Assembly (NCBI RefSeq): GCF_001514065.1
Contig: NZ_KQ948422.1
Location: 62,001 to 126,000 of the forward strand
Source: Streptomyces antibioticus
GTDB lineage: Bacteria > Actinomycetota > Actinomycetes > Streptomycetales > Streptomycetaceae
Reading direction: 5' to 3'
DNA length: 64,000 nt
Both the position numbers and the translations under genes were made by a program. Below, in pieces: positions 6,515 to 54,097 of the stretch. Below the pieces are notes generated by a model. The model made no database searches, had not been told where the DNA came from, and saw only the letters and a list, made by a program, of their open reading frames with translations. Positions within the stretch are counted from its first letter, which is position 1, and every line of letters starts with the position of its first letter.

Positions 6515-6524
6515 GCGCGCGCCC

Positions 6525-6569: not shown

Positions 6570-6599
6570 AGTTCGTACAGGATCCGTACAGGAGTTGAC

Positions 6600-7370: not shown

Positions 7371-7434
7371 GAACACAGTAGCGAGGAAGCCCAGAGTGTC
7401 ATCACAGTCGCCGAGCACAGGGGCACACACCGCA

Positions 7435-34637: not shown

Positions 34638-34768
34638 CGAGCAGCGGATTCAGTCCGTTCAGGCAAAGTTGACGATCCGCCAGGACAAAATGAACGTTTC
34701 CGCAAGTCAGAGCCCTGCCCAAATGGGGCGGGTGGGACTCGAACCCACGGCCGACGGATTATGAGTCC
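34638..34768. repeat. Right copy of 131-bp direct repeat (att-like)
   Basis: About 92% identical, ungapped and co-oriented with 11848-11978. It includes GAACGTTTCCGCAAGTCAG and the tRNA 3' half. It separates the 22.8-kb catabolic segment from the conjugation module, so it may be the end of one or the start of the other element. Confidence 0.8.
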
Positions 34769-34774
34769 GCTGCT
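34724..34774 (-). pseudogene. tRNA 3'-half fragment, anticodon CAU
   Basis: It runs from AGCAGC of the D-arm end through the anticodon loop CTCATAA to the discriminator (…CCCACCCGCCCCA on the reverse strand). It is about six bases longer toward the 5' side than the copy at 11934. The 5' acceptor strand and D stem are missing, so it cannot fold as a tRNA. It is a typical att duplicate of a Met- or Ile-type tRNA gene whose intact copy is outside the window. Confidence 0.85.
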
Positions 34775-34952
34775 GTCGGCGTTGCGCGGCCCGCCCGCAT
34801 CGGGCCGATGGCCCGGCGAGGTGCCAGAGGGCTGGCGGCTGCAGGCCGGAGGCGTCGGCAGCCGCATTCCTCGCCGACAGGAAGCACGCCCTACGCTGAG
34901 GTCTCGTCCTCCGAGTGCCGAATGGTCGTAAATACCCCGGCACGAACGGGCT

Positions 34953-35559: not shown

Positions 35560-36999
35560 TCAACGGAGAAGTGCTGGTAGGGGTGGGTGGTGCGTGGCGG
35601 AGGCGCAGGTGGTGCAGCGGCCGTCGCCTGCTGGGTGGGCGCGGCGGGGTGTGGGGCCCGGGCAGGTGTAACAGGGGGGCCAGCCCAGGCAGGTGGGGCA
35701 GCGGTCTTCGCCGGCCGCGGTGCCCGGGCGTCCGCAGTCGGCGCATTCCACCAGCGCCCGGTAGGTCAGGGCCTCGGTGACAGACCGGTCGGCGGGAGCT
35801 GGGGACGATCGTGTGGCGGTGGATGGCGCGAAGGGTTCCTCGGCCGGCGGCGCTTCGGGGCGGTCGGCCACCCGGTGGGGCGGGGGGTAGGCCTGGGCGG
35901 CTCGCAGGCGGGCGGCGATGATCGCCGCGACCGTGGTGTGCACCAGGTGGGGCAGAGGCCTGCCGGCAATGACGTGGCGCAGGTGCTTGCTGCTCCAGCC
36001 GGCCTCCAGCATCACGGTCGCCACGCGGCCCTGATCGGTCAAGGCCTTGCCGGTCAGTAGAAGTTCGGGGCGACCAGCGGCGATGTCGAGCAGCAGGCGG
36101 ATGCCGGGATGCATTTCATCGGCTGGCGGTGCAGCCGGCAGACCTCCGTCCGCTCGTCGCGTCCTGCTCGGCGGGTTCGCGGCGAGGTGCGGGCGCGGAG
36201 GGAGGGGGTTGGTGTTCTGCTGGTTGGTCTTCTTTCTGTTGGTGTTCTTAGGGGGCCGATCAGCCGACGTCGGCTCACCCACCGGTGGATAACCCGACGC
36301 CGGCTGCGACCTGCATGCCTGCCCATCCGGCCGATCGGTGATCACGTACGCAATCCCACCGAGGGTGCCGCCGACGTTCCGGGTGCGTTCGCGCAGAAGG
36401 AAGCCGTGCTGTTCCAGCTCCTTCAGGCCGCTCTTGACGGCCACCTCGCCGTCGCGGCTGTGGCGTGCCAGGTCGGCGACGGTGATGCGCCAGCCGTCGC
36501 GATGCGTGCTGATCAACCCGAACAGCCCCTTCGCCTTGAACGACAGGCGGGGATCGCGGAAGAGACGGTTGGCGATCTGCGCAAACTGATCCGCCGCTAT
36601 CAGACCCCGCCGGATCCCCACCCGGGCGCCTGGTCCCGCTGCCGGAACGGGGGCAGATACCGGTGCAGCACCGTGGCTGGTGTCGCGGGCCGCGACCGTG
36701 TCGGTGAGGCAGTGGACGATCGCACCGAGGGTGCCGTCGTTGCGCCGCGTCTGGGTGCGTGCGAGGTAGCCGCGGGCCTGTAGTTCACTCAGGCCCGCTC
36801 GGATGGCATCCCGCCCGTCCGGTCCGACCCGCATGAGGTCGGCGAGGGTCACCTGCCAGCCCGAGCGGTGGGTACTGAGGTAGCCGAAGATTCCCTTCGC
36901 CTTGAACGACAGCTGAGGTTCACGCAGCAGGCCGTTGGCGATCTGCGTGAACTGATCCGCCGCCATCACGCCTCGGCGAACCCCCGCCCCGTGGCTCAC
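35560..36999 (-). CDS. Duplicated winged-helix protein with C-terminal zinc-ribbon cysteines
   Basis: 479 residues. It carries two tandem copies of a roughly 95-residue winged-helix-like module: residues about 8-100 (MAADQFTQIANGLLREPQLS, then FKAKGIFGYLSTHRSGW) and about 125-222 (IAADQFAQIANRLFRDPRLS, then FKAKGLFGLISTHRDGW). A linker rich in Asn/Lys/Pro follows. The C-terminus has CxxC pairs CADC, CPTC, CYTC and CTTC, suggesting one or two zinc sites. GTG at 36999 is chosen because it overlaps the stop of a small upstream frame (GTGA). It is divergent from the conjugation operon across the TGCGCA array. Replication initiator or master regulator of the element is plausible; neither is proven. 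Confidence 0.75.
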   Translation of the reverse strand: MSHGAGVRRGVMAADQFTQIANGLLREPQLSFKAKGIFGYLSTHRSGWQVTLADLMRVGPDGRDAIRAGLSELQARGYLARTQTRRNDGTLGAIVHCLTDTVAARDTSHGAAPVSAPVPAAGPGARVGIRRGLIAADQFAQIANRLFRDPRLSFKAKGLFGLISTHRDGWRITVADLARHSRDGEVAVKSGLKELEQHGFLLRERTRNVGGTLGGIAYVITDRPDGQACRSQPASGYPPVGEPTSADRPPKNTNRKKTNQQNTNPLPPRPHLAANPPSRTRRADGGLPAAPPADEMHPGIRLLLDIAAGRPELLLTGKALTDQGRVATVMLEAGWSSKHLRHVIAGRPLPHLVHTTVAAIIAARLRAAQAYPPPHRVADRPEAPPAEEPFAPSTATRSSPAPADRSVTEALTYRALVECADCGRPGTAAGEDRCPTCLGWPPCYTCPGPTPRRAHPAGDGRCTTCASATHHPPLPALLR

Positions 37000-37106
37000 T
37001 GCGCTCCCCCACACGTCGTGGAGCCGCCCGCGGCCAGGTCGGGCTGCCTGCGGTGGAGGGGGATGCGGTCAGGGCTTTTGCGTGCGTACGCGCCGGCGAG
37101 GTCCAT
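36996..37106 (-). CDS. Small leader peptide coupled to the winged-helix gene
   Basis: 36 codons, MDLAGAYARKSPDRIPLHRR onward, ending at a TGA that overlaps the GTG of the next gene by four bases. It could be a translated leader or a small protein; an in-frame ATG further upstream (about 37142) would begin inside the inverted-repeat arm. No homology can be claimed. Confidence 0.4.
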   Translation of the reverse strand: MDLAGAYARKSPDRIPLHRRQPDLAAGGSTTCGGAQ

Positions 37107-37127: not shown

Positions 37128-37227
37128 CCCTGACCAGACCATCGACCAGGTCAGGCCGACCACGGTCACAATCCGCGCACTATCCGCGGTGGTCAGGGCA
37201 TGGTCAGGCCGACCATGCCCTGACCAC
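37128..37227. repeat. Left arm of a 100-bp inverted repeat
   Basis: Block A (37128-37169, CCCTGACCAGACCATCGACC onward) is the exact reverse complement of 37575-37616, 42 of 42 bases. Block C (37189-37227) is the reverse complement of 37518-37556 with one mismatch and is itself a hairpin (17-bp arms GTGGTCAGGGCATGGTC / GACCATGCCCTGACCAC, 5-base loop). The blocks are rich in TGGTCAGG motifs. Confidence 0.9.
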
Positions 37228-37245
37228 GCCACGCCCCGTCCGAGT

Positions 37246-37477
37246 TGCGCAAGTTGACTGCGCAGCATCGCGCAGACCCAATGCGCAGCACGGGTTGCGC
37301 AACCAAGAAGGGTGCGCAGTGGTCATCGCTTCGTTGCGCAGCGCCGGACGGGCCTCGCTAGCGCTGAATGCGCATGACTGCGCAGCCTGTTGCGCACCTC
37401 TCCCCTGCGCGGATCCGAACCCTGGACTGCGCACACCAACGCCGGCCCTCCCGTGCCTGCGCATGCTGAGTTGCGCA
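37246..37477. repeat. Array of 12 TGCGCA palindromes
   Basis: TGCGCA starts at 37246, 37259, 37282, 37296, 37313, 37335, 37369, 37379, 37391, 37428, 37458 and 37472. Many are TTGCGCA or TGCGCAG. Spacing is irregular (10-37 bases). The region is non-coding and sits between the arms of the inverted repeat. It is a candidate iteron/origin, partition or transfer site. Confidence 0.85.
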
Positions 37478-37517
37478 GAGACGCGGCGGTGTCCGCTCGC
37501 CCGCCTCTCAACTGCCC

Positions 37518-37616
37518 GTGGTCAGGGCGTGGTCGGCCTGACCATGCCCTGACCACGCTGTTTGTGTCCTCATCGTGACCGTGGTCGGCCTGACCTGGTC
37601 GATGGTCTGGTCAGGG
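37518..37616. repeat. Right arm of the 100-bp inverted repeat
   Basis: Blocks D (37518-37556) and B (37575-37616) mirror C and A, with an 18-base spacer against 19 on the left. The right arm faces the conjugation operon start (37667) exactly as the left arm faces the winged-helix gene, so both divergent transcripts have the same sequence upstream in the same relative orientation. Confidence 0.9.
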
Positions 37617-37666
37617 TCAGCGGATGTCCTCACCAGCAACATCCGTTCTGAATCTGGAGGTTGACG

Positions 37667-38614
37667 ATGCCTCACCGAAGGCATGCCTCGCTCAAAGAGG
37701 AGGGCCCTGCCGTCATCGCGGCAGGGGCCCGCTTGGAGGCGATGCGGCGCCGGGTGCGCCTGTCGCGGGTGGCGGTGTGGACCGTTATCGCGGCCGGACC
37801 CGTCGCCCTGGCCGTAGCCGTCACCTCCACTCCCACGGCAAGCGTCGCAATCGCGCACAACCGGACGGCCGATGCGCAATCGGTCACGGCGGTGGCCGCC
37901 GACCCGGCCGGCTATGCGCAGGTGTTCATGACCGCGTGGCTGCGCAGCAGCGCCGACGACACGGCGAGTGCGCAGGCACGGCTTGCGCAGTCGATGGCAC
38001 CGGACGTCGAACTGCCCGACCCCGCACCGGATGCGCAGTCGGCGCCGGCTTTCGTCATCCCGGTGCGCAGTGCGCGCACCAACAACGGCGCGGGCGCCTG
38101 GTCGGTGACGGTGGCTGCGCAGTACGCGGATAGCGCCGTGCGCTACTTCGCCGTGCCCGTGACCACCAATACCGCGGGCACCTCGTTCGCGGTGACCGGC
38201 GCACCGGCCGTGGTCGCCGGCCCCGGCCGGGCCGAGCCATCCGAATCTCCGTACACCGTGCCCGTCCCTGACGTTGAACTGAGCAGCACAGTGGGCGAGT
38301 TCCTCGCCGCCTATTTGACGGGTGCCGGTGAGGTCGACCGCTATCTGGCTCCCGGTGTGCATCTCACCGCGGTCTCGCCAGCCCCGTTCGCGTCGGTCAC
38401 GGTGCGGCAGATCTCCGCGATCGAAGAGGCCGCGGCCGCCGAGGCGGTTCCGGGTGACGGCACCCGGGTGCACGTCCAGGCGACAGCCAGGGCCCAGGAC
38501 ACCAGCGGGCGGTGGCCGCTGGTCTACGAGCTCACCCTCGCCGCTCGTTCCGGGCGGTGGGAAGTCGCCGCGCTCACCTCCGCCACGGATCAGGGCGGAG
38601 GTGACCGCATATGA
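37667..38614 (+). CDS. Conjugal transfer protein, TcpC/VirB8-like
   Basis: 315 residues: a short cytoplasmic leader, one transmembrane helix at about residues 40-60 (WTVIAAGPVALAVAVTS), then an extracytoplasmic region with two NTF2-like halves (about 80-190 and 205-315). This architecture matches TcpC, the VirB8-like scaffold of Gram-positive conjugation machines. GGAGG 6 bases before ATG 37667 gives the start. It leads the transfer operon. Eight TGCGCA motifs lie in its first 455 bases, mostly as xxT-GCG-CA(A/G), although T-ending codons are rare in the surrounding genes; this suggests selection on the DNA itself. Confidence 0.75.
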   Translation: MPHRRHASLKEEGPAVIAAGARLEAMRRRVRLSRVAVWTVIAAGPVALAVAVTSTPTASVAIAHNRTADAQSVTAVAADPAGYAQVFMTAWLRSSADDTASAQARLAQSMAPDVELPDPAPDAQSAPAFVIPVRSARTNNGAGAWSVTVAAQYADSAVRYFAVPVTTNTAGTSFAVTGAPAVVAGPGRAEPSESPYTVPVPDVELSSTVGEFLAAYLTGAGEVDRYLAPGVHLTAVSPAPFASVTVRQISAIEEAAAAEAVPGDGTRVHVQATARAQDTSGRWPLVYELTLAARSGRWEVAALTSATDQGGGDRI

Positions 38615-38946
38615 ACGCGGACACGAGTGTGCTGGCGGGAAAGCTGGACGATGTCGGCGAAGCGTGGATCAACATGTTCCACCGCTGGGGCGACCTCGGC
38701 CTGCAGGCGGGCCTGACCTGCCTGGTCTTCATCACCATGGTCCAGAAGGTCAGCGTGCGCGCCGGGATCGGCGCCCTGCTGCTGATGATCGTCGCGCTGG
38801 GGTTGTACAACTCGCGCGAGGACCTGGCGAACATGTTCGAGGACGAGGTGAAGAACCCCGCCCAGGGCGCACCCGCCGTCCCCGGCATCTTCTCCCCGCC
38901 ACCCGCCGCGCGGGAGCACATGCCCTCGGAAGGGAGCAGGCTGTGA
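38611..38946 (+). CDS. Small membrane protein of the transfer operon (TcpD-like position)
   Basis: 111 residues with two hydrophobic helices (about 33-48 and 52-70) and a Pro-rich tail. It overlaps both neighbours by four bases (ATGA at 38611, GTGA at 38943). Small two-helix proteins at this place occur between TcpC- and TcpE-like genes. Its exact role in the secretion channel is unknown. Confidence 0.65.
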   Translation: MNADTSVLAGKLDDVGEAWINMFHRWGDLGLQAGLTCLVFITMVQKVSVRAGIGALLLMIVALGLYNSREDLANMFEDEVKNPAQGAPAVPGIFSPPPAAREHMPSEGSRL

Positions 38947-39545
38947 GCGGGGCGGGCGCGGTGAGCGCGCCTCAGGTGGGCCGCTACTACACCGCGGCCC
39001 GGCGTCACCCCTGGGTGCTGGGCAAGGTCGCCGACTGGAAGATTCCCCTCGGCCCCTATACGCCGGCGCAGCTGGCGGTCGCGGTCGGCGGCGGCTTCGT
39101 GCTGTTCAAGACCGTCCAATGGTGGTCGTGGCTGGGCCCGCTGCCGGTGGTGGCCTGGCTGCTGACCGTCTGGGCGGTACGCCGTCAGAAAATCCGCGGC
39201 CGAGCCCCGCTGCCCGCCGCGCTCGGTCTCGTGCTGCTGGGCTGCCAGCCCCACGGCGGGCGCATCGGCGGGCGCGCCGCCCGCGACCGCCAACCCCGCA
39301 CCCTCACCGCGGGCTTCACCATCGAGGGCGCCCCCGGACCACGGCCTACCTCCCACCGGGCCCCGTCCCGCACCGCCCGGCGACGCACCACTACGGCCTT
39401 GAGGCACGAGCCGGGCCCGGCCCGTGCTGCCCGATCCTCCCCGCGCCCTCCCCGGCACACGGCTGGAGGTGGGCTCGTGGTGGGCCCTGCGTCGGGTGTG
39501 CAACGGCTGCTGCTCGCGACCGATGTGCCGGTCGGGGGTGCGTGA
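38943..39545 (+). CDS. TcpE-like conjugal transfer membrane protein
   Basis: 200 residues. RYYTAARRHPWVLGKVADWKIPLGPYTPAQLAV is followed by two adjacent helices (about 45-60 and 62-80: WWSWLGPLPVVAWLLTVWAV), like the TcpE/PrgI-type inner-membrane component that precedes VirB4. The C-terminal 110 residues are basic, Arg/Pro/Thr-rich and probably cytoplasmic and disordered. The start is GTG at 38943, overlapping the previous gene. Its stop shares one base with the VirB4 start. Confidence 0.65.
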   Translation: MSGAGAVSAPQVGRYYTAARRHPWVLGKVADWKIPLGPYTPAQLAVAVGGGFVLFKTVQWWSWLGPLPVVAWLLTVWAVRRQKIRGRAPLPAALGLVLLGCQPHGGRIGGRAARDRQPRTLTAGFTIEGAPGPRPTSHRAPSRTARRRTTTALRHEPGPARAARSSPRPPRHTAGGGLVVGPASGVQRLLLATDVPVGGA

Positions 39546-42247
39546 TGAGGGTGCCGATCCGGCACATCGCCGGGCACCTGCTGTGGTCGGTGCAGGGCAG
39601 CGTGTGGGCGATCTACCGCCTGCATCCCAGCCCTAACGCAAGCGGGCAGGTCGAGGAGAGAGTGCAGGGCACGTATGTGCTCGCTGCGGTCCGCGACGAA
39701 CAGCTTGCCAAAATCACCCACTTGGTGCGCTCGCTGTCCGGGGCGCCGCGCCTGTTCGGGCTGTGCGCGCAGGTCGATCCCGGTGAGATCGCACTGAAGA
39801 TGATCGAGGGAATCGAGCCCGCCGCGCAGGAGACCGATGCGGGCTCGCATCCGTGGGTGGAGAACGTCGAGGCCGCACTCGAGCTGCTGGACGAGCAGGA
39901 GATGCACCGGCGCACGCTGTGGCTGGCCGTACCGCTCACGACCGAATCCGCTGGCCGGCAACTGTCCGCCCAGGTGGGTGCGGTGTGGGCGGAGTTCGCC
40001 CCGCTGCTCGGCCTGCGGGCGGCGCCCGTGTCCTTGCGGGAGGTGAACGCCTACCGCGAGCAGGCCGCGAAAGTCCAGGCGGCGCTCACCGGCGGCATCA
40101 CGTTCCGCCCGGCCCGGCCGGTGGAGATCGTGTGGATGATCCAGCACGCCCTCCACCGCGGCCTGCCCGAACCCCTGCTGGCGGAGGCCGAGAGCAGCAA
40201 CCTGTTCGGCAGCACGCTCCACCGCGGGGTGCTGCGTTCCCCCAGCTACGCCGACCTCGGCCAAGCCCGCCTGCAGGAAGGCGGCATCGACCCGGGCTCC
40301 GACCCCGCCGACGACCGTCAAGGCAGCGAGCGGATCAGGCGGTCGGGGCGTGCGGCGTGGTGGCGGCGCCAGGCCGGCTCGCCGCTGGCGCGGCGCTGGC
40401 TGCAGGTGGAATCCGACACCGGCACCGGCTACCAGGCGCAGCTGGTGCTGGCCGAGTGCCCGCCCGCTGTCAGCCAGAGCGCAGCCGATCTGTTTGCGCA
40501 GCTGGAGAGTCTGGATTTTCCCGTCGACTACACCATCGACCTCACCCTGGTGGGCGCGGAGAAGGCGCGCGCTCAGGTGCAGCGCAAGAAGAACGAACTC
40601 ATCGACCAGGCCGACCAGTACGACGCCCGCCCCACCGGCATGCCCGCCTCGCTGGCCGAAGCCGCCCGTGATCTCGGCGAGCTGGACGCCCGCCTGTCGC
40701 GCACCGGAGTGGAGGTGGAAGTCCAGTCAGTGACCGTGCTGACGGTGTGGGGTCCGACCGCCGCTGTCTGCGATGCCCGCGCCCGCGCTCTTGGCGCGCT
40801 GCTGGCTGGCGCCGACTACCGCGCCGTGCGCCCGACAGGGCTGCAGGAAGCCCTGTTCACCCTCACCCTGCCCGGCACCGTGCGCCCAGGCACGGTACGG
40901 GAGTTCACCCAGCACCAGGTCTCCGAGGACTGGGCGCTGTCCGGCGCCTTCACCTCGGCGGAGGTGGGTGATCCGAACGGCATGTTCCTCGGCATCGACC
41001 TGGACTGCGGCACCACCCGCCCCGTCATGATCAACGTGGCGGACGCGCCGAAGCAGGACGCGTCCGCCTCGATGGGCATCGTCGGTGACCTCGGTGCCGG
41101 CAAGAGCGTGCTGCAGAAACTGATCGCGGAGGCGGTGTGGGCGCGCGGCGGCTGCGCCATCTGCATCGACCGCACCCCGGTGCGCGAATGGGCCACCTTC
41201 GCCCGCGCCGCAGCGGGAAGCCGGGTGCAGATCATCGACGCCGCCCGCGCCGCCGTGTCCATCGACCCGCTGCGCATGTTCGACGGCCCCGAGGGCCGCC
41301 ACTACGCCCTGTCCTACCTCACCCTGCAGCTGGGCATCGGACCGATGAGCACCCACGGCGAAGTCCTCCACCACGCTGTCGAACAGGCCGCCACCAGTGC
41401 CACGCCGTCCATGCGGCGGGTGGTGGAAGTCCTGGAGCAGATGGCCCGGGGGCAGCCGGGGCGGCGCCAGGACGCGGCCGCGACCCTCGCCGGGCTCCTG
41501 CACGTCGTCGCCGACAACAAGCTGGCGGCCATGGTCTTCGATGCCGCCCTGCCCCCGGTGCGGCTGGATGCCTCCAGCGCCTGCGACATGATCGTGATCA
41601 CGACGGCCGGGCTGAAGCTGCCGCCCAAGGCGGCCTTCGCCAACCCCGAGATCCTCCACCAGCAGCCCCTAGAAGCACTGATCGGCCGCGCAGTGCTGTA
41701 TCTGATCGCCGCGCTCGCCCGGCAGAGCGCCTTCGAGGACCCCAGCCGGTTCACCGCCGTCGTCCTGGACGAGTTGTACTGGCTGACCTCCTCGGCCGAG
41801 GGCACCGCCCTCGTGCACGAGATCCTCCACGACGGCCGCAAACACGGCGCCGGCCTCATCGCCGGATCCCACGACGCCGACGAACTCGGCCCCGACCGCG
41901 GCCTGATGGCCTACCGGGCCCTGGCCCGCACCACCGACCGTGAACGCGCCCGCAGAGGCCTGGAGTTCGTCGGCCTCGACCCCAACGACCCTGAACTACT
42001 GCGGCTGGTGACCACCGGCCTGTCCCCCGTCGGCCACAAGGGCCGCGCCGGCGAGTTCCTCCTGACCTGCCCGCGGCAGAACACCGGCCGCATCAAGGCG
42101 ATCATCCCGCGCATCACACGGATCGCCACCTCCATCACCACCACACCAGGCCCCCGAACGCCCCCTCCCCCACCACCTCCGACGCCGGCCACTACCGAGC
42201 CCGACACCGCAGCCGGCGTGGCCCTGTCCAAGGAGCACACGCGATGA
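39545..42247 (+). CDS. VirB4-like conjugation ATPase
   Basis: 900 residues. The N-terminal half (about 1-480) is the VirB4 scaffold-contact region beginning MRVPIRHIAGHLLWSVQGSVWAIYR. The C-terminal RecA-like domain has Walker A GDLGAGKSVLQK near residue 515, Walker B AVVLDELYWL near 738, and GSHDADEL, RLVTTGLSPVGHKGRAGEFLL further on. It is the cytoplasmic motor that assembles and powers the secretion channel. ATG at 39545 is coupled to the TcpE-like gene (TGATG). The tail is Pro/Thr-rich. It is the clearest marker that this is a type IV secretion rather than a TraB/FtsK-type Streptomyces element. Confidence 0.9.
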   Translation: MRVPIRHIAGHLLWSVQGSVWAIYRLHPSPNASGQVEERVQGTYVLAAVRDEQLAKITHLVRSLSGAPRLFGLCAQVDPGEIALKMIEGIEPAAQETDAGSHPWVENVEAALELLDEQEMHRRTLWLAVPLTTESAGRQLSAQVGAVWAEFAPLLGLRAAPVSLREVNAYREQAAKVQAALTGGITFRPARPVEIVWMIQHALHRGLPEPLLAEAESSNLFGSTLHRGVLRSPSYADLGQARLQEGGIDPGSDPADDRQGSERIRRSGRAAWWRRQAGSPLARRWLQVESDTGTGYQAQLVLAECPPAVSQSAADLFAQLESLDFPVDYTIDLTLVGAEKARAQVQRKKNELIDQADQYDARPTGMPASLAEAARDLGELDARLSRTGVEVEVQSVTVLTVWGPTAAVCDARARALGALLAGADYRAVRPTGLQEALFTLTLPGTVRPGTVREFTQHQVSEDWALSGAFTSAEVGDPNGMFLGIDLDCGTTRPVMINVADAPKQDASASMGIVGDLGAGKSVLQKLIAEAVWARGGCAICIDRTPVREWATFARAAAGSRVQIIDAARAAVSIDPLRMFDGPEGRHYALSYLTLQLGIGPMSTHGEVLHHAVEQAATSATPSMRRVVEVLEQMARGQPGRRQDAAATLAGLLHVVADNKLAAMVFDAALPPVRLDASSACDMIVITTAGLKLPPKAAFANPEILHQQPLEALIGRAVLYLIAALARQSAFEDPSRFTAVVLDELYWLTSSAEGTALVHEILHDGRKHGAGLIAGSHDADELGPDRGLMAYRALARTTDRERARRGLEFVGLDPNDPELLRLVTTGLSPVGHKGRAGEFLLTCPRQNTGRIKAIIPRITRIATSITTTPGPRTPPPPPPPTPATTEPDTAAGVALSKEHTR

Positions 42248-42657: not shown

Positions 42658-45540
42658 ATGGCCCGCCTCGCCCACCCCCTGCTCCGGCCGGCCCTCACGG
42701 TCGTGGTCCTCGCCTGCGTGTTCATCGTCGTCAACACCCAGGTCGTGTACGCGGCCGACAGCGGCGGCACGGGTGATCTGCTATCGCCGCTGAACATCAC
42801 CTCCAGCGAGGGCATCCCGATCGACGGCTACGAACTCGGTGCCCAGGGCGGCTCGATCTTCAGTTTCCAGTCGCAGTCCCTGGCGTTCGCCCTGTCCGGT
42901 CTGTTCACCGTGATCCGGCTGCTGGTCGGCCTGGCCGGGTGGGCGATCGAACTCGCCTTCCGATTCCCCCTGCTGGCCCTCCTCATCAAGCCCGCGCAGC
43001 GCGTCGCCGACGCCTACAACACCGTCGTCGTCGACACCCTCGGGCTGAAGGGGCTGCTGCTGGCGTGGGCGTTCATCTTCGCCGCCTTCATGATCGTGCG
43101 GGGGCGGGTCGGCCGCGGACTGGGCGAAATCTTCCTCACCCTCACCATCGCCGCCCTCGCCGCATCCGCCTTCGTCCGCCCTGACTACCTCCTCACCCCG
43201 AGCGGTCCGCTCGGACAGACGCAACAGGTGGCCGCCGAGGTCGCCAAGGAGAGCGTCAACTCCTACGACTGGGGCGGCAAGCTCGCCAGCCTCAGCCCGT
43301 GCGACCGGATGGCCGGCCAGCAGGAGGCCAAGTGCCTGCAAGAGGAGGCCGCGGCGCCCATTGCGGCCACCGAGGTGGCCCGACCGCTGCAGGACTCGAT
43401 CACCAACGCGCTGATCGTCAAGCCGTACATGCTGCTGGAGTACGGGCGCATCCTCGATCCCGCCAAACCGTCCGACCGCAAGGCTTACGCCGTCCACCTG
43501 AAATGGATCACCGGCGGCTACAAGGCAAGCAGCGGCCCGGTCAGTGAGGAACGCAAGGACTACTGCAGCAAGATCAAGGGGCCCGCTAAGCAGTATTGCG
43601 AACGCGATGCGACCGGCGCCGATCAGGACATCCCCGAGGGTGCCGATGATGTCGGGCTCGCGCCGGGCCAGTCGCTGACCGACATCGACTCTGCCGCCTT
43701 CAGCGACGAGGCACGGCAGTTCGCCGCCTTCCTCAACGACCTCAAGAACTCCGGCGACGTGGGTAAAGCCTGTGCTGCCTACGCCGAAAAGCCCACCTGG
43801 TGGCGGGTGGGCGGGGCGTTCCTGCTGCTGGTTGCGGCGTTCTTCATCTGCGGCATGCTGCTGTCCAGCGCGATCGTGCTGCTGGGCACCCAGGGCATCG
43901 GCGCCGCGGCCGCGGCCGGCGGCGCGATGACGTTCATCGTGGCCATGCTGCCCGGCCCGCCCCGCCAGTCGGTGTGGAAGTGGCTGTCGATCTGGGGCAT
44001 CGCCATCCTCGCCATGGTCGGCATCTGCGCCTTCGTGCCGTTCTTCGGCATCGCTGTCGACGCCACCATCACCGACGGCCCCGACCTGATGGTCGAACGC
44101 ATCCTCCTCATCGACGTGCTGGCCATCGCCGCGGCGGCCGGGCACCGCCGCCTGCTCACCGGGATCAGCTCCTTCGGACGGCGCATGGCCATGCGGATGC
44201 GCTACGCGAAGATCGGCGGCACCCACATGCCGGGCGACACCTCCGAACTCGGCGCCGCCCTCGCCATGAACTCCCCCACCGCGCTCGGGGGTTACGGCGG
44301 CGGTCTGCGTGCCTTCGGCAGCGGCGGGGGACGGTTCGGGATGCTGGGCACCCGCCAGCGGCTGATGGGGGCGCTGTCCTCGATGTTCGACGGGGCGGGC
44401 ATGCCCGTCGACACCGGCCGCATCCTTGCCGACGCAACCGCCGAAGCCGGCCGCGGGCTCGCACCGGTCACCGCGGCCGCCGCCGCAGGCGGCCTCGGCG
44501 CCCGCCTCGGCCTGGGCGGGGCACGGCTGGGGGCGCGCGGCGCGTACTGGCTGCTGATCGGCCGCCGCCCCGACCGGGACAAGCTCGCCCAGTGGCAAAA
44601 ACCCACCGCCAACGGCGACCCCCACGGCGGCGGCCCGTACGGCGGCCCGGGCGCGGGGTCTGGTGGTGGGGGACCGCGGCGGCCGGGAGGGCCCCCGGAC
44701 CGCTACCGCGACGACGACGGACAGATCACCGACCGGCACAGCGGCGAAGTCCTGCACGACCAGCACCGCGACCGCACGCTGCTGTCCACCCGCGCCCACA
44801 ACCGGCTCGTGCGCTACCGCGGCTACCGGATCCTCAACCGCGGCGGCCGCCTCCTGTACGGAGCCACCCTCGGCCTGCCGGCCAACGTCCGCCGCACCCG
44901 GCACAGCGGCTCCCGCTACTCCCAAGACGCTCGCCAGCAGGTCCGGGTGTGGGCCAATACCGGCCGCGAGGACCGCCGCGCTTGGGGCGACATGGGCAGG
45001 CACACCACCCAGGTCCTGCGCGACCACCTCGACGACCGCGGCGGCCCCGGCCCCTTCACCAGCTCCCGCCGCCTGCCCACGTCCACGACAGCCGGCGCAG
45101 CTGGCACTGGTACGGCTCGCTCCTCGTCCCCGGATCCTTACAGCGCCGACGTGGCGGGACCGGCCGTCCCGTTCACCCGGGAACAGGCCCGACGCCAGGC
45201 CGAAGGTCTCCGGCCGCCCGGGGCAGGCAGCCCGCCTTCTACGGAAGGGACCGTGCCGGGGCTGCCGCAGCCCTCGACCCGGCCGGCGGGAGGGAGGGGG
45301 CGCCACGACGGCTGGCCGCCGGTCGGTGGCTCATCGAGCCCTCCGGCACCGTCGCCCGACCCTGCAGGCCCACCGCCTGCGCCCTCTCGGACCGGTCCAG
45401 GCCGTGCTTCCGGGCCGTCGATGCAGCCCGATGCCACAGGTCCCGCGTCGCGGGAGCAGGCGCGGGAGATGATCCAGCGGATCATGCGGCGCAACGAAGA
45501 ACGCGCCCGCGGTGAGGGGGAAGGCGGTGAGCCGCAGTGA
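42658..45540 (+). CDS. Large polytopic conjugation protein (VirB6/TrbL/TcpH-like)
   Basis: 960 residues. A cleavable-signal-like first helix (about 8-35, ending VVYAADSGG) is followed by helices at about 80-115, 133-150 and 155-172. A large extracytoplasmic domain (about 180-375) contains paired cysteines (CDRMAGQQEAKC and CSKIKGPAKQYC). Helices then occur at about 383-405, 410-430, 440-465 and 475-490. The last 430 residues are Gly/Pro/Arg-rich, cytoplasmic and disordered. This layout is that of the VirB6/TrbL-type channel protein. It directly follows the previous stop and overlaps the hydrolase gene by four bases. Confidence 0.8.
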   Translation: MARLAHPLLRPALTVVVLACVFIVVNTQVVYAADSGGTGDLLSPLNITSSEGIPIDGYELGAQGGSIFSFQSQSLAFALSGLFTVIRLLVGLAGWAIELAFRFPLLALLIKPAQRVADAYNTVVVDTLGLKGLLLAWAFIFAAFMIVRGRVGRGLGEIFLTLTIAALAASAFVRPDYLLTPSGPLGQTQQVAAEVAKESVNSYDWGGKLASLSPCDRMAGQQEAKCLQEEAAAPIAATEVARPLQDSITNALIVKPYMLLEYGRILDPAKPSDRKAYAVHLKWITGGYKASSGPVSEERKDYCSKIKGPAKQYCERDATGADQDIPEGADDVGLAPGQSLTDIDSAAFSDEARQFAAFLNDLKNSGDVGKACAAYAEKPTWWRVGGAFLLLVAAFFICGMLLSSAIVLLGTQGIGAAAAAGGAMTFIVAMLPGPPRQSVWKWLSIWGIAILAMVGICAFVPFFGIAVDATITDGPDLMVERILLIDVLAIAAAAGHRRLLTGISSFGRRMAMRMRYAKIGGTHMPGDTSELGAALAMNSPTALGGYGGGLRAFGSGGGRFGMLGTRQRLMGALSSMFDGAGMPVDTGRILADATAEAGRGLAPVTAAAAAGGLGARLGLGGARLGARGAYWLLIGRRPDRDKLAQWQKPTANGDPHGGGPYGGPGAGSGGGGPRRPGGPPDRYRDDDGQITDRHSGEVLHDQHRDRTLLSTRAHNRLVRYRGYRILNRGGRLLYGATLGLPANVRRTRHSGSRYSQDARQQVRVWANTGREDRRAWGDMGRHTTQVLRDHLDDRGGPGPFTSSRRLPTSTTAGAAGTGTARSSSPDPYSADVAGPAVPFTREQARRQAEGLRPPGAGSPPSTEGTVPGLPQPSTRPAGGRGRHDGWPPVGGSSSPPAPSPDPAGPPPAPSRTGPGRASGPSMQPDATGPASREQAREMIQRIMRRNEERARGEGEGGEPQ

Positions 45541-46688
45541 GGCCCCGCCGACGCCGCTTAGGGCGATGGGCATGCCTGGTCGCGCTGTTGCTGTCCGCGG
45601 CCGTCTGCTGCGCCGCCCCCGTCTCCAGCGCGATCAGCGCCTACGCCGCCCTGCAAGCCGGCGCCGATAGCCAGGACGCCATTGCCGACGGCGGCAGCGC
45701 GGCGGACATCCCGCCCCGGATGCTCACCGCGTACCAGAAGGCCGTGCAGCGGGTCGGCCGGCATGTGCCGAAGTGCCGGGGCATGCGGTGGCCGATCCTC
45801 GCCGGGATCGCCAAGGTCGAGTCCAACCACGCCACCGGCCACACCATCACCGCGAGCGGCGACATCCGCCCCCGCATCTACGGGGTGCTCCTCAACGGGT
45901 CCGGGGCCGGCGGCAACAGCACCTCCTTCCCGGACACCGATGGTGGCCGCTGGGACGGCACCGCCCTCGGGGAGCGTGCGGTTGGCCCCTTCCAGTTCCT
46001 GCCTACCACCTGGAACTCCGTCGGCGCGGACGCCAATGGCGACCAGGTGGCTGATCCGCACAACGCCGACGACGCCGCACTCGGTGCTGCGATCTACCTG
46101 TGCGGCAACGGCCGAAACCTGACCCAGCGGGCCGAGCTCAAAGCGGCGATCTATCAGTACAACCACTCCACCGCATACGTCGTGAACGTCCTCGGATGGA
46201 TCGACAAGTACACGGCGGCCGCCAACAACCCCGTCCTGAACGGCGTTTCGGGGACCGTCCGGACCGTCATCGAGGCGGCACTCTCCCAGCGGGGCGTGCC
46301 CTACTCCTGGGGCGGCGGCAGCACCACAGGGCCCTCCTACGGGATCTGCTGCTCGCCCAGCGGCAAAAGCGGTGCCAGCATCAAGGGCTTCGACTGCTCA
46401 GGCCTGACCCTGTACGCATACGCCCGGGCGGGCATCCGCCTGCCACGCACCGCAGCCGCACAGGCCGGAATCGGCCAGCGCATCCCCGCCCGTCTCGGCA
46501 CCGGCGCCCTCCAGCCAGGGGATCTCGTCTTCTACGCCCACTCCCCCGGCCGCGATTCGACGATCTATCACGTCGGCCTCTACCTCGGCCACGGACAGAT
46601 GATCAACGCTGCCCGGCCCGGCACCGTCGTCCGCGTCGACTCAGTCAAAGCCATGTCCGGCTACGCGGGAGGAGCCCGCCTGCTGTGA
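45537..46688 (+). CDS. Bifunctional peptidoglycan hydrolase: lytic transglycosylase plus NlpC/P60
   Basis: 383 residues with a signal-anchor helix (about 10-35). The SLT-like domain (about 55-230) has catalytic Glu95 in AKVESNH and the AVGPFQFLPTTW motif. The C-terminal NlpC/P60 domain (about 240-383) has catalytic Cys287 in GFDCSGLT and His in IYHVGLYLG. It opens the cell wall for the conjugation channel, the role of TcpG/VirB1-type enzymes. GTG at 45537 overlaps the channel gene by four bases. It is complete and well conserved. Confidence 0.93.
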   Translation: MRPRRRRLGRWACLVALLLSAAVCCAAPVSSAISAYAALQAGADSQDAIADGGSAADIPPRMLTAYQKAVQRVGRHVPKCRGMRWPILAGIAKVESNHATGHTITASGDIRPRIYGVLLNGSGAGGNSTSFPDTDGGRWDGTALGERAVGPFQFLPTTWNSVGADANGDQVADPHNADDAALGAAIYLCGNGRNLTQRAELKAAIYQYNHSTAYVVNVLGWIDKYTAAANNPVLNGVSGTVRTVIEAALSQRGVPYSWGGGSTTGPSYGICCSPSGKSGASIKGFDCSGLTLYAYARAGIRLPRTAAAQAGIGQRIPARLGTGALQPGDLVFYAHSPGRDSTIYHVGLYLGHGQMINAARPGTVVRVDSVKAMSGYAGGARLL

Positions 46689-47489: not shown

Positions 47490-50129
47490 ATGGGTCCTGC
47501 GGTGACATCGCACCTGACCGACCCTGCCGGGTGGTCAACGGCTGCGGCCGGCCGGGCACGTGGCCTGCTCACTGGCGTGATCGAGGCCGCGGGCTGGCTG
47601 TTAGGGCACTGGTGGGTGCCAGTGCTGGCCCTGGCCGGCATCTGGGGCGCGGCCGAGTGGCTGATCCGGCGGCTCGCCGTACGCGCGTCCGCGGAGCGCA
47701 TGGCCCTGGAACTCGTCCCCACCCGCCACTTCGACCCCGGTCTGGAGGAGATCTTCCGCCGCGGCGTGCAGCTCGCCCGTGCCTCCACGTCCATGCCGTG
47801 GTGGGTGCCGCGGCGGGCCAAGGCGGTACAGATCCGGCTGCGCGCCGACGGCAGCACGCCCGTGCGTTACCGCATCGAGGGCCCGGCCGGCGGACAACGG
47901 CTGCTGTCCATCACCCCGTTCGGACCAGCCGTCACCGTCCAGCGAGCCCGCCCCATCCACGACACCCCGCGCACGCACACCGTGCGGGCGGAGTTCGTGT
48001 TGCGCGGCACCCCCACCGCACCTTTGCGCGAGGTGCCACTCGACCCGGACCCACTCCAGCCGCTCATCGACGCGGTCTCGGACCTGCGCGCCGAGCTCGG
48101 CGACCTCGCAGAACTCCGCCTCGACCTCCAGCGCGCCCCCAAATGGGCCCTGCGCGCCCGCCGCGCCCAGCTGATGAGTGCCGCCCGCCGCACCGAGCAC
48201 CGCGAGGCACAGCGAGCCGCACGCTGGCTGCGCCACGACACCGCCGGCCTGGAAGACTCCCTCCCCGCCCAACTCCGCCAGCTCATCACCGGCCGCGACA
48301 CCGGAGCGGGCCGGCGGCTGGTGATGCCGCCCGTGCCGCGCAGGGTGGATCGGGAAGAGGCCCTGGGCAAACTCGCCGCCGACGACCACCTCGTACGCGT
48401 ACAGCTGCTGGTGATGTGCGCCTCCAACACCGAAGGGCGCGCCCAGGCCCGCCTCGCCCAACTCCAGGCCGCACTCGATGTGTTCGGAGGCCGCTCCCGG
48501 TGGGCGATGCGCGGGCTGCGGCTGGGCCCCTGGCGTCTGGGCGCCGATCACTGGCCCACCCGCCGCGGCTTCGAACAGCGCTGGACGCTCGGCCTGTGCC
48601 GGCCGCCGAGGGCGAACTGGGTACGCCTGGAAGAACTCCTCGGACTGCTCAAACCCCCCACCGTCCACTGCCGCCTGCCGCTGTTCCCGACCGAGCTGCC
48701 CACCTTCCGCTTCGGGGATCCCGCACTGCTGCTGCAGGGCATCTACCAGCACCCCGATGGACGCCGTCGCCTGGTCGCCACCCACACCGCGGAGACCTTG
48801 TTCGAGTGCGCGGTCGGCAAAGCCGGCGGCGGCAAAACGGAACGTGCCCTCGCTCAGGCCATCGCCTATGCCCATGCCGGCGGCGCGCTGATGTTCCTCG
48901 ACCCGCACCGCGACTCCTGGCCCCGCGCCGCGCCCTTCCTCGCCCACCCCCACCTGATGGGACGGATCGCGCTGATCGACCTCAACACCACCGGCCCCCA
49001 CCCACATTTGAGTTCGTGGAACCCGCTGGCCCTGCAGCACGGCCAGGCCCCGCACGAAGTGGTGGAGGCGGTCGCCGACGCCTTCGCCGCCGTCCTGGGC
49101 TGGGACGATGCCACGGCGCCCCGCGCGCTGACCATCTTCACCGCCGCCCTCACCGTGCTGACGGCCATCAACCAGATGGCCTGCCAGGCCGGCCGGATGG
49201 AGGATCAGGCCACCCTCTTCCAGATCCGGCCCCTGCTCACCGACCCCGACTTCCGTACCGCTGCCCTAGCCGCCACCACCGGCCTCCTCGACGCAGACAC
49301 TTTCTCGTGGTGGCAGACCGTGTTCCCCCACCTGCCTGCAGACGCCTTCGCCGTGGTCCTCAACCCCCTCGCCCGACTCTCCGCTCATCCCGTCACCCGC
49401 GCCTTCCTCGGCCAGCCAATCGGCGTCTACAACAGCCGTGCCGCCATGGACAACGGCCTCATCGTGTGGATCTGCCCCGCGGGAACCGGTCCCACCGACC
49501 GGCTGCTGACCGCACTGATCGCCCGCGACCTGCTGCGCGCCGTCCGCTCTCGCCGCGACACTCCCGCCCAGCGACGCCGGCCGTTCCGGCTGTACTTCGA
49601 CGAACTCATCACCCTCACCGGCGCCGCCCCGGAAACCATCGCCGCCATGTTCGAGGACTTCCGCAAATACCAGGTCAGTGTCCACGGCATGACCCAACTC
49701 CTGGCACGTCTTCCCGCCCCGGTACGGCAGTCACTCACCCAAAACGCCTCCACTTTGTCCACCACCACCGGTTCCACCACCGCCGTCGCTCCCATCACCG
49801 CCGAATGGGGCGATGCCCCCAGCCCGCGGGAAGTCGCCGCCCTCGACCGCTACGAGCACTACACCTCCCTGACCGTGGGCGGCCGCCGCATCGGACCCGT
49901 GCGGCTCACCGGCTGCCATCTCGATGACGTCTTCGCCGACCAAGCCCGCCCCCGCCAGGTCCCCGCCCTCAACGGCGCCGCACGTACCACCGCCCGCGCC
50001 CAGCCCCTGAACCAGCTCACCGCCACCGCCGCCGCCCAACAAGCCCGCGTCCAGGCCTTCCTCACCCACCTCACCACCGCCACCCCCACACGCCTGACCA
50101 AAGACGACCGGGGACACCGATACCAATGA
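47490..50129 (+). CDS. VirD4/TraG-like type IV coupling ATPase
   Basis: 879 residues. Membrane helices are at about 25-50, then a 380-residue region, then an AAA-type motor with Walker A VGKAGGGKTERA near residue 444, LMFLDPHRD, Walker B LYFDELITL near 701 and a VHGMTQLLARLP sensor region. Such ATPases recruit the DNA substrate and pump it through the channel. It starts at 47490 with a GGGAG-type site. It follows the damaged gene above and overlaps the next small frame by four bases. It could also be a second VirB4-like ATPase, but the HerA/VirD4-type core and placement favour coupling protein. Confidence 0.85.
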   Translation: MGPAVTSHLTDPAGWSTAAAGRARGLLTGVIEAAGWLLGHWWVPVLALAGIWGAAEWLIRRLAVRASAERMALELVPTRHFDPGLEEIFRRGVQLARASTSMPWWVPRRAKAVQIRLRADGSTPVRYRIEGPAGGQRLLSITPFGPAVTVQRARPIHDTPRTHTVRAEFVLRGTPTAPLREVPLDPDPLQPLIDAVSDLRAELGDLAELRLDLQRAPKWALRARRAQLMSAARRTEHREAQRAARWLRHDTAGLEDSLPAQLRQLITGRDTGAGRRLVMPPVPRRVDREEALGKLAADDHLVRVQLLVMCASNTEGRAQARLAQLQAALDVFGGRSRWAMRGLRLGPWRLGADHWPTRRGFEQRWTLGLCRPPRANWVRLEELLGLLKPPTVHCRLPLFPTELPTFRFGDPALLLQGIYQHPDGRRRLVATHTAETLFECAVGKAGGGKTERALAQAIAYAHAGGALMFLDPHRDSWPRAAPFLAHPHLMGRIALIDLNTTGPHPHLSSWNPLALQHGQAPHEVVEAVADAFAAVLGWDDATAPRALTIFTAALTVLTAINQMACQAGRMEDQATLFQIRPLLTDPDFRTAALAATTGLLDADTFSWWQTVFPHLPADAFAVVLNPLARLSAHPVTRAFLGQPIGVYNSRAAMDNGLIVWICPAGTGPTDRLLTALIARDLLRAVRSRRDTPAQRRRPFRLYFDELITLTGAAPETIAAMFEDFRKYQVSVHGMTQLLARLPAPVRQSLTQNASTLSTTTGSTTAVAPITAEWGDAPSPREVAALDRYEHYTSLTVGGRRIGPVRLTGCHLDDVFADQARPRQVPALNGAARTTARAQPLNQLTATAAAQQARVQAFLTHLTTATPTRLTKDDRGHRYQ

Positions 50130-51529: not shown

Positions 51530-54097
51530 ATGCCCTCCATCCGAGCCCACCTCACCGCTCTCCGCCTGACCCTGGCCTTCTCGCTCTCGCTCTCGCTGAT
51601 CCTCGCGTTGGTTCCGGCTGACGCCGTCGATACAAGCCGCGACCTCGCGCCCACGGCCGTCAGTGTCCGCGACGGCGGAGAATCCGACGCCCCGTCGCCG
51701 ACTCCCTCTCTGGCACTGCGCCCCGGCGCCCGGCTCGCGCCCAACCGCATCCTGAACTTCTCCTCCAGCCCGCTGTCTTTGAGTTACGTCATCACGGATC
51801 AAGACGCTGCACCCCCCGACCACGGCACTGCCGGACCGTCGACCCCCCGTACACCGGGCCATGGCGGCGCCGAGCAACCCGGCACCGCCTCCGCCAGACC
51901 TTCCGCACCTGTGCAGCCCACCAGCAGCGCCTCGGCATCGGCAACGGCCGAGCCGTCGAGAACCCCCTCCGGCACGCCGTCGTCGGCCCCGTCCGGCGCC
52001 GACCACACAGTGAGCCTGTACAGCCTGCTCGCCGCCGCACTCCTAGCAGCCGCCGCCCTCGTCCTCGCCCTGCGCAGACGCCGACGGCACCCGAAGGCGG
52101 GCCGTAAGACCGGTATGGGCACGAAAGCGGCACAGCCCACGGGCGAACCAACTGCGATGGGAGAAGCGGATAGGCCGGAGGGCGCCATGCTCCTGGACTT
52201 GGCCCTGCGCACCATGGCCCATCACAACGCCCACCTGTCGCAACCAGCAAGCCTGCCAGAGGTGCGCGGTGCCCGCATCGGCGCCTCAACAGTGCAGGTC
52301 CTGCCCGAAGACCTCACCGCAGAGCCGCCCGCGCCCTTCATCGCAGGCGGCGACGGTTTCTGGGTGCTACTGCACGACGCCGACCTGCTGGACGCAAGCG
52401 CCGCGGCCCAGGTCCCCGCCCCCTACCCGGCCCTGGTCACCCTCGGCACCGCCAGCAACGGTGAACTACTCCTGCTCAACCTCGCCTCGCTGCCCGCCCT
52501 GCTTCTCGACGGCGAACCCGCGCACATCAGCGAGGTCTCCACCGCCCTGGCCGTCGAACTCACCACCAGCCCCTGGGCCGACCGGCTCGAACTCATCACC
52601 GTCGGCTGCGGTGACGGCCTCTACCACCTGCTGCCCGCGCCGGACATCACCTCCCTGCCCGACAGCGCGCACGCCGTACGCGAAGCGACCGAACGGCTGC
52701 TGGAAGCACACCAGTCAGCCGAGGCAGGCGGGCAACCGATAGTCGTGCTGAGTGCCGACCCGCTCACCACCAGCACCGCCTGGCACTTCGCCGACCTCAC
52801 CACCACCCCCGCCACCCGCCCCCTCACCCTCATCGCACCCGCCGACACCGCCGCACCCCACTTCCCCCACGCACCCCTCCTCGACACGACAGACAACCGC
52901 GCGCAGTACCTCGAACCTCTCGACACCTGGGTCACCCTGCAACGCCTCACCCCGACCGCCTACCAGCAGATCACCAACACGCTCAGGAAGGCGGCGGTAC
53001 GCCCGGCCCACACTCATCACCCGGGACGAAACACCCTGCCGAGCACCGTGAAAGAGGCTGAACCCGAGCCCGGCCAGCACGAACAGAACCCCGGCATCCC
53101 ACCAGCCACCGCGTCTTCAGAGAACAGTCCGCCAGCCTCGGCACCGACTCTCACGGATGGCAGCAGCGACGCCGTCTTTCCCGCGCTCCTGAGCGCCTTG
53201 CACCCGACAACGACCGATCCCGCACACCCGACGGGGGCCCCGTCCGCACGTAGGCCCCCGGCGCAACGGGCCACTGCTAGCCAGAGCGACGGCAGCATCG
53301 CACCGCCGGAATCAGGTGCGGACCGCAGCCGTACGAGCAGTGCGACACAGATCCGGGTTCTAGGGCCGGTCGAGGTCGACGGCGTCGACGCCAGCGGACA
53401 CGGCCCGCGCATCGCGCAACTCGCCGTCCTGCTCTACTTCAAACCCGGACGCACCGCCGATGCCCTGTGCACCGACATGGACCCAGATCATCCCTGGTCC
53501 ACCACCACCCTCAACGCCCGCATGCACGGCCTGCGCGCCGCCCTCGGCAACGACCCCACCGGCCAGCCCTACGTCCCCCGTCGCAAAAGCGGAGATGACC
53601 CCTACCACCTCGCGCCCAGCGTCACCTGCGACTGGACCCGCTTCCAACAACTCACCCGCGACGCCCTTACGGACGAGGGCACCGGCGCGTCCCGAGTCGA
53701 GCAGCTCGAGGAAGCCCTCGCACTGGTCCGCGGTACGCCCTTCGACGGCAAGCCCTTGCCCTGGGCCGAACCCCTCCAGCAGGAAATAACCACCGCCATC
53801 ATCCAGGCCGCCCACACCCTCGCCACCCACCGCATGAACCCCGGCCCGCGCCACGACCTCGACCGGGCCCGGCGCGCCATCGCCCGCGGCCTCGACATCG
53901 ACGACACCGCTGAAGTCCTCTACAGGGACTGGATCCTGGTCGAGCACGCTGCAGGCAACCGCCACGGCGTCCAGACCGCCATCACCCGCCTCCAGCACAT
54001 CACCCGCACCCTCAACTGCCCGCTGGAGAAGGAGACCGAACAGCTCATCGCCACGGTCCTCGGCTCCGCCCGTCACGCCCAGGCCACCCGACCATGA
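51530..54097 (+). CDS. Membrane-anchored protein with C-terminal BTAD/SARP-like domains
   Basis: 855 residues. A signal-like helix at about 10-32, a Ser/Pro/Thr-rich extracytoplasmic part, and a transmembrane helix at about 165-185 (LYSLLAAALLAAAALVLAL) followed by Arg-rich sequence. A cytoplasmic domain (about 210-480) of unknown fold comes next. A winged-helix (IRVLGPVEVDG... at about 605) and bacterial transcriptional activation domain of TPR-like helices run to the end. Such large membrane-tied BTAD proteins occur in actinobacterial type IV secretion clusters; the usual LysM domain is not evident here. It may sense envelope state or organise the machine. It overlaps the next gene by four bases. 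Confidence 0.75.
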   Translation: MPSIRAHLTALRLTLAFSLSLSLILALVPADAVDTSRDLAPTAVSVRDGGESDAPSPTPSLALRPGARLAPNRILNFSSSPLSLSYVITDQDAAPPDHGTAGPSTPRTPGHGGAEQPGTASARPSAPVQPTSSASASATAEPSRTPSGTPSSAPSGADHTVSLYSLLAAALLAAAALVLALRRRRRHPKAGRKTGMGTKAAQPTGEPTAMGEADRPEGAMLLDLALRTMAHHNAHLSQPASLPEVRGARIGASTVQVLPEDLTAEPPAPFIAGGDGFWVLLHDADLLDASAAAQVPAPYPALVTLGTASNGELLLLNLASLPALLLDGEPAHISEVSTALAVELTTSPWADRLELITVGCGDGLYHLLPAPDITSLPDSAHAVREATERLLEAHQSAEAGGQPIVVLSADPLTTSTAWHFADLTTTPATRPLTLIAPADTAAPHFPHAPLLDTTDNRAQYLEPLDTWVTLQRLTPTAYQQITNTLRKAAVRPAHTHHPGRNTLPSTVKEAEPEPGQHEQNPGIPPATASSENSPPASAPTLTDGSSDAVFPALLSALHPTTTDPAHPTGAPSARRPPAQRATASQSDGSIAPPESGADRSRTSSATQIRVLGPVEVDGVDASGHGPRIAQLAVLLYFKPGRTADALCTDMDPDHPWSTTTLNARMHGLRAALGNDPTGQPYVPRRKSGDDPYHLAPSVTCDWTRFQQLTRDALTDEGTGASRVEQLEEALALVRGTPFDGKPLPWAEPLQQEITTAIIQAAHTLATHRMNPGPRHDLDRARRAIARGLDIDDTAEVLYRDWILVEHAAGNRHGVQTAITRLQHITRTLNCPLEKETEQLIATVLGSARHAQATRP

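Follow-up and report, generated by a model that had tools for sequence, protein, structure and literature searches.

Repeat arrays at tra genes are already known in kind. The clt loci of the Streptomyces plasmids pIJ101, pJV1, pSVH1 and pWTY27 are cis-acting repeat regions at or within a tra gene, composed of short direct and inverted repeats on which a high-order complex is proposed to assemble (PMC3583192), and the sps sites of pIJ101 form another such array (PMC4170104). The locus described here resembles clt in that direct and inverted repeats lie at and within a transfer gene. It differs in that, as far as the accessible text on clt goes, clt plasmids carry a single FtsK-like Tra translocase, whereas a TcpC homologue, a VirB4-type ATPase and a further ATPase are found here; moreover, clt sequences change from plasmid to plasmid, whereas the hexamer TGCGCA is identical in all elements that have the array (PMC3583192). 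Like the sps/SpdA2 system, it consists of a short repeated palindrome found on many Streptomyces plasmids and lying partly in a coding region. The sps palindromes are bound by the plasmid protein SpdA2 of pIJ101; however, sps is a 12-bp motif in one to three copies that is tied to spdA and affects stability rather than transfer, and the string TGCGC does not occur in the accessible sps account (PMC4170104). A second motif family at our locus, TGGTCGG, recalls the iteron origin of pWTY27, since both comprise 7–8-bp repeats in the two orientations plus a long inverted repeat, but the pWTY27 origin adjoins repAB whereas the neighbours here are a winged-helix gene and a transfer operon, and the available account of that origin describes no counterpart of a TGCGCA array (PMC3583192). 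Transfer genes of an equal TcpC/VirB4-type class occur on Streptomyces mirabilis pI, which moves to S. lividans, and on the Cutibacterium acnes Flp-pilus plasmid (PMC9195940, PMC5696575). The latter couples its VirB4/TcpC-like genes to a tad locus, as do three Streptomyces plasmids in this study (PMC5696575), and the accessible text on these two plasmids mentions no TGCGCA-like array (PMC9195940, PMC5696575). In the open-licence literature searched, as far as its texts were available, we found neither a cis-acting site for TcpC/VirB4-type systems nor a fixed hexamer that runs in many ordered copies into a structural transfer gene throughout a plasmid group.

In this study, we analysed a 64,000-nt stretch of the Streptomyces antibioticus genome, hereafter the window. 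A first, sequence-only reading had noticed a dense array of TGCGCA running from a non-coding region into a conjugation gene. That gene is indeed one of conjugation: it is a tcpC homologue (37661..38614, forward strand; listed start TTG at 37661, ATG at 37667; Pfam TcpC, PF12642, E 2e-12) and the first gene of a VirB4-type transfer operon, with the TcpC domain first and a VirB4-like ATPase downstream (AAA_10). The operon continues on the forward strand with a small protein recognised by its position and its recurrence among relatives (38611..38946), a VirB4/TraC-like ATPase (39119..42247; AAA_10, E 2e-39; TraC_F_IV weak, TcpF and VirB4 models below cut-off), a large membrane protein without a Pfam family that holds an equal gene position in relatives (42658..45540; a weak CD3337/EF1877 model below cut-off), an SLT/NlpC-P60 cell-wall hydrolase (45537..46688; NLPC_P60 and SLT_2) and a putative ATPase without a Pfam family (47490..50129). 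The position of this last gene suggests the function of a coupling protein (VirD4/TcpA), and the gene at the same place in relatives is annotated as an ATP/GTP-binding protein. Among nine window proteins scanned with Pfam, none matched the FtsK family; one of the ATPases was AAA_10/VirB4-like and the other had no match. Further along lies a DUF2637 membrane protein gene (54094..56034, forward strand; PF10935), with no second TGCGCA array beside it in the window. Divergent from tcpC, on the reverse strand, is a gene (35560..37014) whose product combines two winged-helix domains with a Cys-rich C-terminus; this protein is a candidate binder of TGGTCGG. A tRNA-Met gene at 34724-34801 adjoins the left edge of the transfer module.

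Relatives came from 198 plasmid records; Streptomyces contributed 127 of these. Nine of the first ten plasmids opened (L068-L077) are linear, the circular one being that of strain CdTB01. A Replic_Relax gene closed the operon, with Tad-pilus genes after it, in all three plasmid tracts that were followed to that point; a PF13814 match was present somewhere on all ten plasmid records, in some of them not at the operon end. At L068/L078, L069/L080 and L074/L081, all on large Streptomyces plasmids, a Tad pilus cluster comes after TcpC and the ATPases of VirB4 and coupling type. One Replic_Relax family is carried by linear plasmids of Streptomyces, and several records place the gene about 10-15 kb from one end. 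In a genus sample, tcpC was present in 36 of 199 genomes, and in several near-complete assemblies it lies close to one or both chromosome ends. In the genome of the window, Replic_Relax gave one strong match, on the small contig C22, and one weak partial match, on C4. Because no match was found on the window's own contig, the window element looks like a partial copy of the transfer module.

Direct counting reproduced the numbers of the sequence-only reading: 12 TGCGCA hexamers lie in the non-coding segment 37246..37477, and eight more lie within tcpC (37873..38121) at exactly the places listed. The rate expected by chance had been put at about 0.1 per 232 bases, which agrees with 28 per 64 kb; in 100 shuffles of the window the mean was 28.0 (sd 5.4, top 42), against 46 observed. 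No other hexamer in the window reaches so high a local density (12 per 240 bp, 20 per 900 bp); the runner-up over 240 bp, GCGCAG, has seven copies and overlaps TGCGCA. The 500 bp upstream contain 12 hexamers, whereas 200 dinucleotide shuffles gave a mean of 0.56 and a top of 3, and the first 510 nt of tcpC contain eight, against a mean of 0.96 and a top of 5 in 500 codon-preserving shuffles. We further searched the whole 10.1-Mb genome, by forward matches, for triplets, in which no gap between the three hexamers exceeds 30. All 31 triplets sit in four element copies (C1, 10; C4:154169, 8; C4:220926, 7; C17:11282, 6), and the check proposed earlier, for equal density elsewhere in the genome, thus turned up no unrelated place that matches. 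The TGCGCA cluster heading the transfer operon is therefore real. An artefact of chance or codon usage might be imagined, given that the in-gene hexamers often read Ala-Gln and that GC-rich genomes are rich in GCGC, but it is refuted by the codon-preserving shuffles, by the genome-wide uniqueness and by the third-position T described below, and we give it practically no weight. The three other copies in the same genome (L005 9900-10700 at C4:154169, L007 9900-11000 at C17:11282, and L006 at C4:220926) keep 9–11 hexamers despite decay of the adjoining genes: one has a fragmentary winged-helix gene with no tcpC match, at another neither neighbour was identified, and a third has a stop-interrupted tcpC.

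Conservation was examined at 79 loci from named genomes of Streptomyces, Kitasatospora and Actinacidiphila, 76 of which had enough sequence for counts. Taking -650..-150 as the upstream region, and requiring the in-gene count to exceed the top of 200 codon shuffles, we found at least four upstream hexamers in 62 of the 76 relatives and an in-gene count above every shuffle in 70. At an identity of at least 58% the figures were 56/62 upstream and 62/62 in the gene; at 50-58% they were 4/7 and 3/7, and below 50%, 2/7 and 5/7. Most relatives under about 45% identity have no array. The sequence-only reading would have been undermined by related elements with conserved genes but no array; the 62/62 in-gene result at 58% identity or more shows the opposite. 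Among homologues of the genus outside the window's own genome, 14 of 29 exceeded all in-gene codon shuffles, including 13 of 13 at 58% identity or more; the genus loci do not form an independent sample, since some of their strains also supplied named-genome loci. Of ten plasmids, nine have at least four upstream hexamers and nine exceed the in-gene shuffles, the tenth (L072) tying the maximum. Five plasmids lower on the tcpC list (L138-L142, 32-50% identity, one from Rhodococcus) had no array, with 0, 0, 0, 1 and 4 hexamers per 2.1 kb, the four being in L138. In a typical element the upstream block counts six to nine hexamers and the first half of tcpC about nine; the window copy has 12 and eight.

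A codon alignment was made of 68 genes with 58% identity or more and a length of 250 aa or more, comprising the window gene, the passing plasmid loci among L068-L075 and the named-genome loci. Nine in-gene sites are conserved, each in 51-66 of the 68 genes. At six of them, which lie in the phase NNT GCG CAN, the preceding codon ends in T in 88-99% of the genes. The T-ending frequency over 304 other codons averages 7.3%, although eight of those, too, have T in more than half of the genes. At residue 124, D, G, A and S predominate, yet the third-position T is kept in 99%. The Ala codon adjoining the T-ending site codons is GCG in 363 of 385 cases, against 1426 of 4103 elsewhere. This contrast at the codons before the in-gene sites, 88-99% ending in T versus 7% for the rest, shows that selection acts on the DNA word itself and maintains TGCGCA even within coding sequence.

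Among the non-consensus in-gene forms, C-to-T or G-to-A transitions within the central CG are the commonest change, accounting for 22 of 59 single substitutions. This counts in favour of a methylation-dependent switch, one of the options raised by the sequence-only reading; TGCGCA also has a GCGC core, and some plasmids have cytosine methylase genes upstream. An alternating purine-pyrimidine run such as TGCGCA is moreover Z-prone, so that the segments could act through DNA conformation with no base-specific protein site at all. However, a relative of the neighbouring methylases was found at only seven of 64 loci and nowhere in the window, which led us to drop them as a general partner, and plasmid L139 has two such methylases and no array. 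As for Z-DNA, the favoured flanks of the hexamer, a pyrimidine before and a purine after, stop the alternation, and the three most enriched palindromes at the window locus include no other alternating hexamer. We regard the methylation or Z-DNA explanation as very improbable.

The sequence-only reading had called the spacing irregular and unlike that of classical iterons. The first half of this description stands in that no periodicity was seen, but the spacing is not arbitrary. In 58 loci with at least five upstream hexamers, adjacent gaps cluster at 11-14, 20-23, 24-27, 33-35 and 37 bp, and their order recurs. When 54 loci with at least six hexamers in a narrower stretch were aligned, eight site blocks were common to at least 60% of the loci, and the median pairwise identity was 0.92 in site columns against 0.45 between sites; the aligner may be biased towards site columns, which makes the gap list the more reliable of the two. 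The upstream hexamers hence keep their order and spacing although the spacers diverge. No longer dyad was found around TGCGCA. Iterons are regularly spaced, at about 17-22 bp; the gaps here mostly range from 11 to 37 bp and show no such regularity.

The upstream array is enclosed by the two arms of an inverted repeat of about 100 nt, a feature absent from the sequence-only reading. Repeat search and motif mapping placed the left arm at 37128..37228, towards the promoter of the divergent gene, with TGGTCRGG/CCYGACCA units, and the right arm at 37517..37616, in the tcpC promoter region, with operator-like TGGTCGG/CCGACCA units that recur in relatives. The identity is 87% between 37128-37188 and 37556-37616 and 98% between 37189-37228 and 37517-37556. 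In 21 aligned loci, TGGTCGG/CCGACCA units stand at about -148, -136, -126, -114, -83, -69 and -62 in most tcpC promoters, and the region before the divergent gene holds further units. The TGCGCA blocks bracket the tcpC promoter, with the operator units in between. At L074, L075 and L076 the TGGTCGG unit is replaced by TGGAGGGG, GGTGGGG or TGGTGAG, with TGCGCA unchanged.

The winged-helix protein had been suggested as a partner of TGCGCA. It tracks the TGGTCGG motif instead: a protein of at least 57% identity is present at 51 of 60 loci with CCGACC promoters (at five, none was found in the examined stretch), against one of 16 loci without such promoters, 11 of which keep at least four in-gene hexamers. 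Several array-bearing loci also had no winged-helix gene in the examined stretch. The HTH_36 profile scored just under the cut-off for the window protein and over it for a relative, and an AlphaFold2 model of the divergent protein predicted two winged-helix domains of HHHH-EE topology (20-103 and 142-225) with good local confidence, the whole chain being poor (mean pLDDT 54.5). Taken together, these observations suggest TGGTCGG as the operator that the winged-helix protein recognises, although the association between protein and operator class may reflect common descent. Because the operator varies between elements while TGCGCA stays constant, and because the winged-helix protein follows the operator, the sequence comparison points to two putative binders: TGCGCA would be recognised by a factor whose specificity is constant, and TGGTCGG by a regulator particular to each element.

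The same arrangement could be viewed as an iteron replication origin, with the winged-helix protein as initiator, TGGTCGG as the iterons and TGCGCA as accessory. The repeats do resemble the pWTY27 origin, whose 7-8-bp repeats and inverted repeat of about 105 bp are bound by RepA according to the part of the report available (PMC3583192). An element-specific motif is also what co-evolution of iteron and initiator would produce, and the divergent protein is predicted to have two winged-helix domains; no replication family is among its profile matches. Nevertheless, the array is tied to the transfer operon, several composites occur per plasmid, and some array loci have no winged-helix gene in the examined stretch. 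On a 103-kb plasmid, the annotated DnaB-like helicase lies at 4982-7516 and the arrays at 33.5 and 58.6-59.5 kb, at least 26 kb away. The origin put forward by the sequence-only reading thus draws weak support at best, and we think it improbable. A partition site had likewise been proposed; it would be centromere-like and bound by ParB or another centromere-binding protein. Several partition systems use centromeric repeat arrays, to judge from the accessible text of a report on SCP1 (PMC13245405), and parA/parB of NZ_CP013744.1 are some 2 kb away from its second array. In NZ_CP109230.1 (103 kb), by contrast, the annotated ParB is at 89.8 kb and the arrays at 33.5 and 58.6-59.5 kb, at least 30 kb apart. 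None of the nine window proteins scanned with Pfam matched a Par family. The ParB sites of SCP1, as that text gives them, are 13- and 19-bp inverted repeats around parAB, in three copies each (PMC13245405). We regard a partition site as very improbable.

Arrays also occur away from tcpC. NZ_CP108307.1, NZ_CP108988.1 and NZ_CP130719.1 carry composites ahead of other genes, in which a CCGACC quartet is flanked on both sides by TGCGCA; the composites of these three plasmids lie directly behind or close to Replic_Relax genes. In NZ_CP108307.1, triplets were found at tcpC and at six other places. S. camelliae shows that the two motifs can be separated, with a CCGACC group but no TGCGCA behind a Replic_Relax gene; at the corresponding place SAP1 lacks a TGCGCA array as well. 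In four opened loci (L258-L261), a CCGACC triad precedes the Replic_Relax gene by about 82-113 bp in three, with a pair in the fourth. A second TGCGCA array stands by a DUF2637 homologue in three plasmids, at the distal end of the transfer and pilus genes, and also in one genome (L078 33529-33941, L080 15467-15861, L081 6583-7725, L104 1260-1562). At three of these four, a DUF3846-like gene is present too, and some hexamers again fall in coding sequence. Other arrays, on a few chromosome-arm replicons, lie within or directly follow a TrwC (MOBF) relaxase gene or stand between such a gene and Replic_Relax (L100 8129-8233, L102 7961-8382, and L016 at G096 C2:196675-197164); these arrays are near Replic_Relax genes, in genomes without a tcpC match. 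TrwC had no match in the window's own genome. The arrays at DUF2637 and TrwC are not explained by a pure tcpC promoter switch.

These places bear on the closest rival of the reading that we prefer, namely that the array and the TGGTCGG inverted repeats form a clt- or oriT-like cis-acting transfer locus on which the coupling ATPase and a relaxation protein assemble. The array lies between the gene for a DNA-binding protein and the transfer operon and runs into the first gene; described Streptomyces clt loci mix direct and inverted repeats, and that of pWTY27 takes in 16 bp of tra, in the accessible description (PMC3583192). Further arrays touch Replic_Relax or TrwC genes, and the long inverted repeat encloses the window array, with a single-strand DNA folding z of -17.8 when the arms are included, against -4.2 for the array alone. 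On the other hand, several arrays occur per plasmid, as in NZ_CP108307.1, unlike a single transfer origin. A dense array was present within about 1.5 kb of Replic_Relax in only five of 58 loci, part of which come from array-bearing records, and of TrwC in only one of 30; both genes were rejected as general partners. We hold a transfer locus of this kind to be a close rival, though less likely than not. Under either reading, the array is most likely where a protein lands that governs or performs the transfer of DNA between bacteria.

We therefore favour, at slightly less than an even chance, the explanation that the array is a cis-acting, protein-binding nucleoprotein control site of a Streptomyces plasmid transfer operon, as the sequence evidence may be read. 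Of the options first listed, a cis-acting protein-binding site of the transfer module is the one that held up, given the in-gene selection, the spacing and the place at the head of the tcpC-VirB4 operon; the others proved weaker. The composites ahead of other genes on three plasmids also speak for such a site. A putative sequence-specific protein would recognise the bare palindrome TGCGCA and assemble on the upstream and in-gene blocks in a fixed geometry. It may then bridge or loop across the tcpC promoter together with a regulator bound to the element-specific second operator, which lies at the tcpC promoter and on the side of the divergent promoter and is of the TGGTCGG type here and TGGAGGG, GGTGGGG or TGGTGAG elsewhere. 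The transfer operon would in this way be held off until transfer is called for. Binding, bridging and repression at the array are thus what we infer from its arrangement. Several observations count against the control site. Besides the arrays away from tcpC, the parting of the two motifs in S. camelliae and the array loci in which no winged-helix gene was found, these are the number of ordered sites, which a plain operator would not usually have, and six close relatives among the 62 in which the in-gene block is kept with fewer than four hexamers upstream.

A bolder proposal, which we advance tentatively and consider less likely than not, is that the arrays are the platform of a new architectural factor of constant specificity serving T4S-like transfer, and that the pair of blocks at tcpC licenses or starts the transfer of mostly linear plasmids. 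To our knowledge, how conjugation starts in the large linear plasmids of Streptomyces is poorly known. The array offers a concrete, conserved DNA target for this question, which can be removed inside tcpC by synonymous changes with the protein untouched. If the explanation is true, a binder of fixed specificity beside a plasmid-variable operator would mean that a shared architectural factor is separated from element-specific control.
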